From a virus: a DNA stretch of 41,870 bases. Shown piece by piece: positions 17,942 to 25,029 of this stretch; the first letter of the stretch is position 1; the number at the start of each line of letters is the position of its first letter. The notes beneath the pieces were generated by a model. The model had not been told where the DNA came from, searched no databases, and worked only from the letters and a program-made list of their open reading frames with translations. The stretch is taken from IMG/VR virus record IMGVR_UViG_3300022745_000069, positions 1-41,870 of that record; one strand, given 5' to 3'. A program made the translations under genes and the position numbers.

Positions 17942-18935
17942 CGCCGCACGCTACGAGGAGGAGATCGCCGAGCTTCGGCGTGCGCTGAACAACTCGATGC
18001 GCGCCGAGGCGAAGGCGAGGGCCCGCTCCGAGGAACTCGTGGCCGCCGTCTACACGGCCGCCCGTGACGCCGCCATGGCGTACGGGAAGCCGTCGGCGGT
18101 GCGGGCCGCGAAGCGGGACCGGCGGCAGGGGCGCGGCGAGGTCGCGCTCGTGCACACGACGGACTGGCAGCTCGGCAAGCGGAGCGAGGGCTACTCGCCG
18201 GACGTGTGCTCGGCGCGGATCATGGACTTCGCCGACAAGGTCGGCGAGCTCACCGCGATCCAGCGGGCGGCCCGGCCGGTGCGCGACGTCACCGTCATGC
18301 TCGGCGGCGACATGATCGAAGGCGTCACGATCTTCCCGAGCCAGGCGTTCGAGGTGTCGGCCACGCTGTTCGATCAGGTGTTCATGTGCGCCCGCCTCAT
18401 CGAGGACTTCGTGCGCCGTCTGCTCACCGAGTTCGAGACGGTCACCGTGTTCGAGGAGTACGGCAACCACGGCCGCATCGGCCGGCGCGGCGAGCTGCCC
18501 GCGGGCGACAACCTCGACCGCATGGCGTACCGCATCGCGGCCGAGCGCTTCGCCGACGACGCACGCGTCACGTGGCACCCGAGCACCTCGTGGTACTCGA
18601 TGGTGACGGTGGGGAACTACCGGGCCCTGCTCGTGCACGGCGATGAGGTGAAGTCGTTCGGCGGCAACGTGCCCGCCTTCGGCATCATGCGCAAGGTCAA
18701 CGCCTGGGCCACCGGCGTGGTCGAGCCGTTCACCGACGCCTACCTCGGCCACTACCACCAGGTGATGACGCTGAGCATGGCCAACGGCGGCCGCGTGTTC
18801 GTCACGGGCTCGCCCGAGTCGCACAACGAGTACGCCCGCGAGTTCGTGGCCGCCACCGGCCAGCCGAGCCAGCGGCTCCACTTCGTGGACCCCGAGAAGG
18901 GCCGAGTCACGTCCGAGCACGTCGTCTGGCTGTAG
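17928..18935 (+). CDS. Calcineurin-like metallophosphoesterase
   Basis: 335 aa. An N-terminal helical region (1-65, rich in Ala/Arg/Glu) precedes a metallophosphoesterase core with the usual five motifs in order: HTTDWQLGK (76-84, Asp79; Gln81 where the usual His would be), GGDMIEG (Asp128), YGNHGR (Asn180-His181), LLVHGDE (His237) and GHYH (275-277). The Gln for His change in motif I is also seen in some Mre11/SbcD-like phage enzymes and lowers certainty about the second metal. Substrate unknown; nuclease or cyclic-nucleotide activity is possible. Its place between holin-like and lysin-like genes is unusual for a DNA repair enzyme. Confidence 0.85.
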   Translation: MSLTDAARYEEEIAELRRALNNSMRAEAKARARSEELVAAVYTAARDAAMAYGKPSAVRAAKRDRRQGRGEVALVHTTDWQLGKRSEGYSPDVCSARIMDFADKVGELTAIQRAARPVRDVTVMLGGDMIEGVTIFPSQAFEVSATLFDQVFMCARLIEDFVRRLLTEFETVTVFEEYGNHGRIGRRGELPAGDNLDRMAYRIAAERFADDARVTWHPSTSWYSMVTVGNYRALLVHGDEVKSFGGNVPAFGIMRKVNAWATGVVEPFTDAYLGHYHQVMTLSMANGGRVFVTGSPESHNEYAREFVAATGQPSQRLHFVDPEKGRVTSEHVVWL

Positions 18936-22659: not shown

Positions 22660-22826
22660 GAGTCTCCTTCGATGTCGATGACGGCGCCGGCGAGGGTGGC
22701 CTGGGCGACGTCGCGATGGCTGGCAGGCACCTCTCGGATGGTCCGAGAGGTGCCGTCGTCGCCGACGTCGTGAGTGATGACGGTGTAGCGCCCATCGGGG
22801 TGGCGGGCCACCACTTGACGGATCAT
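22656..22826 (-). CDS. Unknown small protein
   Basis: 56 aa, starting at the ATG 22826 that overlaps the preceding stop (ATGA). Pattern: MIRQVVARHPDGRYTVITHD, then TSRTIREVPASHRDVAQATL, AGAVIDIEGDS. Two short strands followed by a helix. No family known to me. Coupled translation with both neighbours argues that it is real. Confidence 0.62.
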   Translation of the reverse strand: MIRQVVARHPDGRYTVITHDVGDDGTSRTIREVPASHRDVAQATLAGAVIDIEGDS

Positions 22827-23023
22827 CCGCGCACCTCGATGAAGTCGGCGTGGCTCTTGATCGAGCGGGGCATCCCGCAGAGGTTTGCGTACCGGATGAA
22901 GTGGGCGCCAGTGCTCCATTCCTCCACGATTTCGATCGTCTCGGGGCGGGCCTCGCGATTCTTCACGAGCCAGCCGGCGTAGCGGCGGGCGTCGGTGCGG
23001 GTGAGGGGTGCGTTCGATGTCAT
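22823..23023 (-). CDS. Unknown small protein, leaderless first gene of operon
   Basis: 66 aa: RTDARRYAGWLVKNREARPE, TIEIVEEWSTGAHFIRYANL, CGMPRSIKSHADFIEVRG. No family recognised; the middle looks like a strand with two aromatic residues. The ATG at 23023 lies 6 nt after a good -10 box, so the transcript probably begins at or next to the start codon, and there is no Shine-Dalgarno site. First gene of the ATGA-linked operon running to 22229. Confidence 0.65.
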   Translation of the reverse strand: MTSNAPLTRTDARRYAGWLVKNREARPETIEIVEEWSTGAHFIRYANLCGMPRSIKSHADFIEVRG

Positions 23024-23029
23024 ACGAGA

Positions 23030-23058
23030 ACCGTAACGTATCGCACCGTAACCGTCAA
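23030..23058 (-). promoter_or_regulatory. Promoter of the reverse operon
   Basis: On the reverse strand: -35 TTGACG (23058-23053), 17-nt spacer, -10 TACGGT (23035-23030). Start of transcription would be about 23023, the A of the ATG. The spacer and -10 contain a direct repeat ACCGTAAC (+ strand 23030-23037 and 23045-23052, 15 bp apart), a candidate regulator site. Confidence 0.75.
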
Positions 23059-23064
23059 GGGGTT

Positions 23065-23086
23065 CGTGTGCAGATCGTGTGCATGT
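23065..23086 (+). repeat. Left arm-type site pair (attP P arm)
   Basis: Contains two copies of CGTGTGCA (23065-23072 and 23076-23083), 11 bp apart. The same arrangement recurs on the other side of the attP core at 23273-23293. This is the expected layout for arm sites bound by the N-terminal domain of a tyrosine integrase. Confidence 0.68.
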
Positions 23087-23185
23087 CCGCTCAGGCGCGA
23101 CAGGGCGCCGCCGACGAAATGCCTGCTCGTGACCGCGGCCGACCGCGCCTGAGCGCCAGCGGCGCACAATCGCACTGTCGAGGCC

Positions 23186-23212
23186 AGGGGTTCGATTCCC
23201 CTCACCTCCACC
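23186..23212 (+). other. attP core candidate: tRNA/tmRNA 3'-end sequence
   Basis: AGGGG-TTCGATT-CCCCT (23186-23202) is a perfect T-arm, followed by the seven-base acceptor strand CACCTCC, discriminator A and CC. No matching 5' half exists upstream, so this is only a 3' end. The TCCACC end is typical of tmRNA (ssrA), a common target, though a tRNA is also possible. It lies 78 bp before the integrase start. Recombination with the host gene would rebuild an intact RNA gene. Confidence 0.72.
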
Positions 23213-23228
23213 CGCAAAGGCCCAGGTC

Positions 23229-23262
23229 ACGGCCCCTTTCCGAGAGTTCGGAGAGGGGCCGT
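23229..23262 (+). terminator. Hairpin downstream of the attP core
   Basis: 15-bp stem with one G-T pair (23229-23243 with 23248-23262), four-base loop, then GTTTCCC. It may be the terminator of the target RNA gene carried along in the attachment region, or a barrier to transcription into the integrase gene. Confidence 0.7.
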
Positions 23263-23272
23263 TTCCCGTTCA

Positions 23273-23293
23273 CGTGTGCAGACGTGTGCATGT
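23273..23293 (+). repeat. Right arm-type site pair (attP P' arm)
   Basis: Two copies of CGTGTGCA (23273-23280 and 23283-23290), 10 bp apart, matching 23065-23086 except for one missing base. The second copy runs into the integrase ATG (23290-23292), so integrase bound here could repress its own gene. Confidence 0.68.
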
Positions 23294-24417
23294 TCTACGC
23301 TGCGCAGGTGGGCGCACGACGAGGCAGGCACGAGGGAACCATCATCGACCTCGGGGGCGGACGCTGGCGCGTGATGGTCAGCACGCCGACGGGCCGGCGG
23401 TCCAAGGTGGTGAAGGGCTCGAAGCGGGACGCCGCCACCGCGCTGGCCGCACTCCGCGAGGTCACGGGGCCCGCGGACGGTGGCCGGACCATGGGCACCC
23501 TCTTGGACGAGTGGCTGAAGGCCTCCGAGGGCCGCGTGGCGCCGTCCACCCTGAAGCGCTACCGGCACGTCGTGGACTCGGCCGTGCGGCCCGCCCTGGG
23601 GCGCCTGAGGCTCGCTGCAGTCGACGCACGGACGCTCGACGCCTTCGTGGCCTCCGTCGGCGCCGAACGGGGCTCAACGGCGGCCAGGAGCGCCTACGAC
23701 ATCGTGGGCATCGCCCTCCGGCAGGGCGTGCGCTGGGGCTGGCTCACGAGCGATGCGCTCGACCGCCGGACGCCACCGGCCGCCATCCGGCGCGACATCT
23801 CGCCGCCCGCCGTCGACACCGTGGCGCGCCTCATCGAGGCGTGCGGCGCCGACGCCGACTTCGCGCTCTACGTCGGCCTGGCCGCCGTCACCGGTGCGCG
23901 CCGGGGCGAGCTCTGCGGGCTCCGGTGGGGCGACGTCGTGGGCCGCGAACTGACCATCGCCCGATCCATCGCCACGCTCGACGGCGGCGAGCTGTTCGTG
24001 AAGGCGCCGAAGTCCGGCCGCCGTCGGCGCATCACGCTCGCACCGGCGTGGGCCGAGGCGCTCGAACGGCACCGGGAGGTCGTGCGCGCCCGAGCGCGAG
24101 CGTGCGGGGTGCGGTGGAACGACGACCTCTACGTGTTCTCGATGAGCGGCGACCACGTGGCGCCGATGCGCCCCGACTACGCCTCGCACCGGTTCAACGC
24201 CGTGATGCGCACGGCAGGCGTGGCCGGCGTGCGCCTCCACGACCTCCGGCACTTCAGCGTGACGCAGCTCTTGTCGGCCGGTGTCGACGTGCGCACGATC
24301 GCCGAGCGCCACGGGCACGAGCGGCCCGACGTGACGCTGCGCGTCTACGCCTCGTTCGTGCGGGCGCGGGACACCGAGGCCGCTGACATTCTCGGTGCCA
24401 TGGTGAAGCCCCAGTGA
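23290..24417 (+). CDS. int: Tyrosine integrase
   Basis: 375 aa from ATG 23290; GTG 23308 is the alternative, neither with a good ribosome-binding site. Residues 10-55 form the arm-binding domain (GTIIDLGGGRWRVMVSTPTG, then RDAATALAALREVTG). A core-binding helical domain follows (MGTLLDEWLKASEGRVAPST, LKRYRHVVDSAVRPALG). The catalytic domain shows Arg204 (TGARRGELCGLRW), a Lys in the beta hairpin (VKAPKSGRRRRI), His317-Arg320 (HDLRHFSVTQLL), His343 (RHGHERPDV) and the nucleophile Tyr353 (RVYASF). All catalytic residues are present, so it should be active. It integrates the phage at the RNA gene matching the attP core. Confidence 0.95.
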   Translation: MFYAAQVGARRGRHEGTIIDLGGGRWRVMVSTPTGRRSKVVKGSKRDAATALAALREVTGPADGGRTMGTLLDEWLKASEGRVAPSTLKRYRHVVDSAVRPALGRLRLAAVDARTLDAFVASVGAERGSTAARSAYDIVGIALRQGVRWGWLTSDALDRRTPPAAIRRDISPPAVDTVARLIEACGADADFALYVGLAAVTGARRGELCGLRWGDVVGRELTIARSIATLDGGELFVKAPKSGRRRRITLAPAWAEALERHREVVRARARACGVRWNDDLYVFSMSGDHVAPMRPDYASHRFNAVMRTAGVAGVRLHDLRHFSVTQLLSAGVDVRTIAERHGHERPDVTLRVYASFVRARDTEAADILGAMVKPQ

Positions 24418-24575
24418 ACTCTCGGGTACGCCTCACCCGACTGTCGAGTCACCGACTACGGTCGTTGCTGACTCAATCAGCGGGCAACTCGGGGGCACGG
24501 CGGTGCAGGGCATCGAGCGGGACATGGGAACGGTGGCGGTGCTCATCGCATCGCTGCGCGAGCGGATCGAGCTTC

Positions 24576-24944
24576 TCAGCGAGCCCGACGGCGCTGCACC
24601 TCGGCGAAGGCCGCCTGCAGCTCGGCGAGTTGTGATTCGAGTTCGGCGACACGACGGGTCAGTTGCTCGGCGGTCCCCGCGACCTCCGCATCGTCCAACG
24701 TGACGGGCTCTCGCCCAGCGAGGATGCCGCGGATGGCGTCGTCCTTCCAACCGAGCAGGCGCGCGAGGCGCCGCTGCACGTCGATGCGCTGAGGCGTCTT
24801 CTCGCCTGAGGCGAAGGCCCGCACCGTCGCGGGGTCGAGCCCCGCGTGACGAATCTCGGCCGTCCCGATCATGAGTTCGGTGAGACGGTCGGCGATGAGG
24901 GTGGCAAGGCGCGCCTCGGAGCGCGCCGCCTTCGTGGTGGCCAT
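24576..24944 (-). CDS. Immunity repressor-like HTH protein with coiled coil
   Basis: 122 aa from ATG 24944. Residues 10-70 hold a helix-turn-helix of Cro/CI type: LATLIADRLTELMIGTAEIR, HAGLDPATVRAFASGEKTPQ, RIDVQRRLARLLGWKDDAIR. The C-terminal third (VAGTAEQLTRRVAELESQLA, ELQAAFAEVQ) is a heptad coiled coil, probably for dimerisation. It is divergent to the excisionase-like gene, with operator-like repeats between, the usual immunity layout. No protease domain is present, so induction would not be through RecA-stimulated self-cleavage. The -10 box lies 6 nt before the ATG (leaderless). Confidence 0.82.
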   Translation of the reverse strand: MATTKAARSEARLATLIADRLTELMIGTAEIRHAGLDPATVRAFASGEKTPQRIDVQRRLARLLGWKDDAIRGILAGREPVTLDDAEVAGTAEQLTRRVAELESQLAELQAAFAEVQRRRAR

Positions 24945-24950
24945 GTCCCC

Positions 24951-24956
24951 ATCGTA
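24951..24956 (-). promoter_or_regulatory. -10 box of the repressor gene
   Basis: Reverse strand TACGAT. Six bases separate it from the ATG at 24944, so the transcript should start on the start codon. No convincing -35 is seen at 16-18 bp; upstream activation or an extended -10 is possible. Confidence 0.5.
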
Positions 24957-24984
24957 CGACCGCGCGCAAGGGCGCAGTGTGAAA

Positions 24985-25029
24985 CACACGTTGCGACTTC
25001 CTCAAGGTCCGGTCGACTCGTTGCAACTT
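24985..25029. promoter_or_regulatory. Two operator-like sites (OL-type)
   Basis: CACACGTTGCGACTT (24985-24999) and GACTCGTTGCAACTT (25015-25029) resemble the 15-mer GAGTCGTTGCAACTC at 25067. They lie between the divergent repressor and excisionase-like genes and are candidate sites for the repressor. Confidence 0.6.

Follow-up and report, generated by a model that had tools for sequence, protein, structure and literature searches.

Layout of the locus

Directly upstream of a tyrosine integrase gene in the window (the whole stretch of viral DNA analyzed, 41,870 nucleotides), a truncated tRNA is flanked by two tandem pairs of CGTGTGCA, all four copies being exact and direct (Table 1). Elsewhere the window has just two more copies, both on the minus strand and far off, at 18151 and 33515. 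Starts are 11 bp apart in the left pair and 10 bp apart in the right one, and the two pairs are variants of a single composite site (CGTGTGCAGAT-CGTGTGCATGT and CGTGTGCAGA-CGTGTGCATGT), with CGTGTGCAGA followed by CGTGTGCATGT as the longer wording common to both. When any 8-mer forming two tandem pairs 130 to 260 bp apart was allowed to score, the window gave 0 mismatches and the best of 40 dinucleotide shuffles gave 7. The two tandem pairs around a tRNA remnant described in an earlier note are thus exact and go beyond what shuffled DNA yields.

Table 1. Coordinates of the attachment-site features and the integrase gene in the window.
Feature	Position	Strand	Basis or remark
Putative arm-type site P1 (CGTGTGCA)	23065..23072	+	Exact repeat; layout beyond shuffles
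Putative arm-type site P2 (CGTGTGCA)	23076..23083	+	Exact repeat; layout beyond shuffles
Predicted attP common core, 49 bp	23166..23214	+	3′ half of tRNA-Ala(CGC)
CAGGTCA box	23223..23229	+	9-10 nt 3′ of tRNA end; conserved in relatives
Hairpin	23229..23262	+	15-nt inverted repeat; between core and right arms
Putative arm-type site P3 (CGTGTGCA)	23273..23280	+	At the -35 region of the promoter proposed for int
Putative arm-type site P4 (CGTGTGCA)	23283..23290	+	Within the spacer of the proposed int promoter
Proposed int -10 box TACGCT	23296..23301	+	TANNNT 5-8 nt before start in relatives
Tyrosine integrase gene (int), proposed GTG start, 369 aa	23308..24417	+	PF00589 1e-16; PHROG integrase 1.3e-53

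The hairpin lies in a stretch (23214-23275) that folds with -33.8 kcal/mol (z -4.6). It has no T run and was not called by the terminator scan; it is likely to act as a terminator downstream of the rebuilt tRNA. A search of the phage collection with positions 22801-24500 returned no nucleotide relatives. Two smaller features were also observed left of the core. A 21-nt inverted repeat (23088-23108 and 23135-23155, 81% complementary, with GCTCAGGCGCG/CGCGCCTGAGC as its perfect part) lies between P2 and the core, and a possible degraded second core copy (23040-23066, ATCGCACCGT ... AGGGGTTCG) abuts P1 on the left, offset by 128-129 bp from the real core and weak (shuffle P values of 0.02-0.05).

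The core and its predicted host gene

A T-arm and acceptor strand, GGGGTTCGATTCCCCTCACCTCCACC, is present exactly (26 bases, 23187-23212), as the earlier note had reported, but the tRNA-derived stretch is longer than was thought there: the core extends from 23166 to 23214 and also takes in the anticodon loop (ATCGCAC at 23169) with the 3′ anticodon strand. It is identical at 48 of 49 bases to tRNA-Ala(CGC) of two Acidimicrobiia genomes (G003 and G004), whereas it has only about 28 bases in common with tmRNA genes. ARAGORN assigned 80 of the 120 genome loci holding the 26-base string to tmRNA and 20 to tRNA-Ala, and made no call in the other 20. In the tmRNA loci, leftward identity ends about 2 bases beyond the string (GGACA or similar). 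In tRNA-Ala(CGC) loci of Actinomycetota/Acidimicrobiales, it runs on through GGCC, and in the best of them it extends across the variable loop and the 3′ anticodon strand into the loop ATCGCAC. Joining a host 5′ half to the phage 3′ half in silico gave hybrids that were called tRNA-Ala(CGC) in 13 of 13 cases. Since the core includes the anticodon strand and loop, matches at 48 of 49 positions and yields hybrids that are called, we identify it as the 3′ half of tRNA-Ala(CGC).

By these comparisons, the predicted host target is tRNA-Ala(CGC) and not tmRNA. An RNA gene as the target, as first suggested for this locus, is supported by the match; tmRNA, the candidate then placed beside a tRNA, is not, as identity stops in tmRNA genes and continues in tRNA-Ala(CGC). 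The check proposed at that time, searching genomes with the core for a tRNA or ssrA 3′ end, led to tRNA-Ala(CGC) and not to ssrA. ARAGORN found no complete tRNA or tmRNA in the window. Rfam, run at an E-value threshold, gave only tmRNA matches below the gathering score (17 and 22 bits versus 47), and we rejected the 22-bit permuted-tmRNA match, which is accounted for by the T-arm.

The exact core occurred neither in a host genome of the class, order, and phylum samples searched nor in the viral contigs searched, and no lysogen, attL, or attR was found in the genome samples. The host is probably an uncultured actinobacterium of the class Acidimicrobiia. Mycobacteriophage cores are normally 30-45 bp long and accompanied by paired arm sites (PMC10865867); as expected for an attP with arm sites, a core of about that length with the 3′ half of a host tRNA was found here. 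For this uncultured temperate phage, the analysis provides a likely integration gene and a likely host class, and it replaces the tmRNA assignment that the T-arm alone would suggest.

Integrase relatives, putative arm sites, and the proposed int promoter

The catalytic R/K/H/R/H/Y columns are invariant or nearly so among the relatives of the integrase. The arm-binding family PF14657 matches 4 of the 14 aligned members and does not match the integrase of the window, which is full length. Relatives abound in the same bacterial class, 113 of 395 genomes having one at E ≤ 1e-20, and the best are 31-43% identical. Of the 30 best genome loci, 27 have a tRNA immediately upstream of int, and in 25 of these the two share a strand. 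These tRNAs are of many isotypes, with tRNA-Ala(CGC) at two loci (L143 and L145, whose contigs are too short to include a distal att site). Upstream of int, 21 of the 27 tRNA-adjacent loci carry an 8-bp sequence repeated perfectly in tandem, the two starts separated by 10-12 bp (shuffle P of ≤0.035 for each locus, the repeat of L148 possibly falling in coding sequence), and its sequence varies between most loci. This recurrence supports the earlier proposal that CGTGTGCA represents putative integrase arm-type sites.

A single-protein search of the viral contigs found no close relatives of the integrase; a profile search recovered phages with intact attP. Four copies in two pairs with ≤2 mismatches (shuffle minimum, 5) are present in 11 of 36 such phage loci, mostly with arm sequences of their own, which upholds the attP layout first read from the window. 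The strict four-copy layout is missing in about two-thirds of the 36, some of these loci being truncated, distant, or less regularly repeated. Among IMG/VR phages, L181 has CGTGACCA pairs with the 11/10 spacing of the window around a tRNA 3′ end, and L214, L217, L235, and L236 have CGTGTGCC pairs, nearly the arm word of the window; these five differ from it in their integrases (about 30-38% identical in the matched segment) and in their tRNA cores. We also noted CGTGTGCC pairs around other tRNA cores in a set of uncultured phages with distant integrases (L214, L215, L217, and L234-L236). Our survey adds support to the view that integrases of this family as a rule have paired arm sites, spaced 10-12 bp, upstream of int, the arm sequence shifting from phage to phage. 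By comparison with these loci, the CGTGTGCA pairs would be arm-type sites for the N-terminal domain of the integrase.

Relatives of the integrase start near residue 12-15 of the frame numbered from ATG 23290. Of 29 relatives, 15 have a TANNNT motif 5-8 nt before the homology-chosen start (background, 3.2%; P = 2e-15, a value that ignores the relatedness of the 29), and only 5 have a Shine-Dalgarno-like sequence. A simple sigma-70 consensus scan found no promoter. Since the -10 box and GTG 23308 fit the pattern of the relatives, translation probably begins, leaderless, at GTG 23308 rather than at ATG 23290. The earlier note had taken this ATG, inside the last repeat copy, as the start codon: the overlap is real, but the relatives point to the GTG.

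With the start at GTG 23308, P3 spans about -35 to -28 and P4 about -25 to -18, so the right arm pair would lie in the promoter (-35 region and spacer) and not over the start. Integrase bound there would be likely to block its own promoter. Self-repression, already predicted from the repeats, is thereby strengthened as an idea, but its placement shifts from the start codon to the promoter. Such autoregulation was tested for intS of KplE1 and is predicted for tRNA-then-integrase modules (PMC2951348). In the window, the tRNA and int are on the same strand and the candidate integrase sites overlap the int promoter, as positioned only by the comparison of relatives.

Proposed integration mechanism, known systems, and the CAGGTCA box

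The sequence comparisons support the layout, the core identity, the target gene family, the arm pairing, the hairpin, and the start codon. We consider it very likely that a temperate siphophage has its complete attP here, with tRNA-Ala(CGC) as the target, arm pairs that the integrase would bind, and an int gene that would repress itself. In the scheme that we infer for protein binding, the exact crossover, termination, and repression, the core-binding and catalytic domains of the integrase would work at the core, and its N-terminal domain would bind the paired CGTGTGCA sites and fold the DNA into an intasome. The integrase-side junction would join the host 5′ half to the phage 3′ half, giving a complete tRNA-Ala, and the phage hairpin would then sit between the rebuilt tRNA and int. 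The integrase gene would be read from its own promoter, probably leaderless, and integrase occupying the right arm pair would repress it. Since attP is intact inside the contig, the DNA was presumably in a free state (virion or excised) and not in a prophage.

Three other explanations were weighed against this reading. The phage could target the host tmRNA gene (ssrA), as Cluster K1 mycobacteriophages do; the 26-base string is indeed exact in many tmRNA genes (80 of the 120 loci), and the weak Rfam matches are to tmRNA. Most of the tmRNA matches come from other phyla, however, and their identity stops two bases to the left of the string while that of tRNA-Ala(CGC) extends to 48 of 49 bases, which leaves ssrA a very improbable target. 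Slighter still is the chance of tRNA-dependent lysogeny, in which integration breaks the host tRNA and the phage depends on a tRNA gene of its own. Actinobacteriophages that share this paired arm layout include cases of such lysogeny (PMC10865867), but the known cases carry a tRNA and have cores of about 10 bp, whereas the window encodes no tRNA and its 49-bp core rebuilds a predicted tRNA in all 13 hybrids.

The remaining alternative concerns the CGTGTGCA pairs, which could be operators for a repressor or an excisionase instead of arm sites, the right pair overlapping the proposed int promoter. Yet one pair stands on each side of the core and both point the same way, like arm sites, and the layout accompanies related integrases in many phages while the repeat sequence changes. 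We judge the operator explanation improbable and retain arm-type sites within an attP directed at tRNA-Ala(CGC).

This layout is the published attP organization of Cluster K1, L5, and Giles phages and does not represent a new system. The attP of CrimD, a Cluster K1 phage (HM152767), has P1-P4 and a stem-loop between the core and P3 (PMC3203893). Like the window, it places the core 5′ of int between two arm-repeat pairs, and our hairpin occupies the place of its stem-loop. CrimD differs in its tmRNA target, its 24-bp core, and the inversion of P3/P4 relative to P1/P2, all four sites of the window being direct. Putative arm-type pairs in direct orientation were described for L5 and Giles (PMC3203893), which have other arm sequences and RNA-gene targets, L5 having further arm sites as well. 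The IntS system of the KplE1 prophage (PMC2951348) shares the order of tRNA then integrase on one strand and integrase sites over the int promoter; it differs in being enterobacterial, in targeting argW, and in that autoregulation was tested there and is predicted here.

The flanking ORFs also recall CrimD, which has a small leftward gene on the left and leftward genes, including the repressor, to the right of int. In the window, a small leftward ORF without family matches (22823-23023, minus strand) lies left of attP, and a leftward ORF with a weak helix-turn-helix (24576-24989, minus strand; HTH_31 below the cut-off) lies right of int. Upstream of the small ORF, ACCGTAAC forms a direct repeat (23030-23037 and 23045-23052, starts 15 bp apart), which is a candidate for an operator or an excisionase site.

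The CAGGTCA box, a short motif conserved next to attP, is shared with known actinobacterial phages and may be an undescribed part of such sites. Of 25 relatives in which the tRNA adjoins int on the same strand, 17 have it (≤1 mismatch) past the tRNA end, nearly always by 8-12 nt, versus 1 of 40 control RNA genes not chosen by an integrase (Fisher P = 9e-9, with controls few and unmatched for isotype and relatives phylogenetically nonindependent). In the phage loci, it is about 7-fold enriched in the 500 bp before int (0.77 versus 0.11 per kb). Tweety, BritBrat, and Patt carry CAGGTCAGAG exactly, and CrimD matches it at 9 of 10 positions; in Tweety, BritBrat, and CrimD the box adjoins the attP core. 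It is in the sense of the RNA gene wherever a T-arm could be placed (none was placed in Patt). Since the tRNA is opposite to int in Tweety and BritBrat, the box follows the core rather than int. It lies on the opposite side of the core in L214-L236 and on both sides in L178 and L190-L196. The tRNA-Ala(CGC) of genome G009, which has a box-like follower, had no adjoining integrase in the locus examined, and a literature text search for the box string showed no integration paper among the 15 of 119 matches listed.

We propose tentatively, with a little less than even confidence, that the box is a conserved and so far unnamed att-site element of tRNA-targeting tyrosine integrases in actinobacterial phages, set in the tRNA sense and independent of the tRNA. 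A shared factor (an excisionase or a host protein) might bind it, or it might act as a signal placed after the rebuilt tRNA. If confirmed, the CAGGTCAGAG box would offer a handle on a partner still to be named in actinobacterial phage integration. The loci in which CAGGTCA(GAG) was noted next to integrases, irrespective of the tRNA, comprise the window, L136-L162, L253, L257, L259, and L264.
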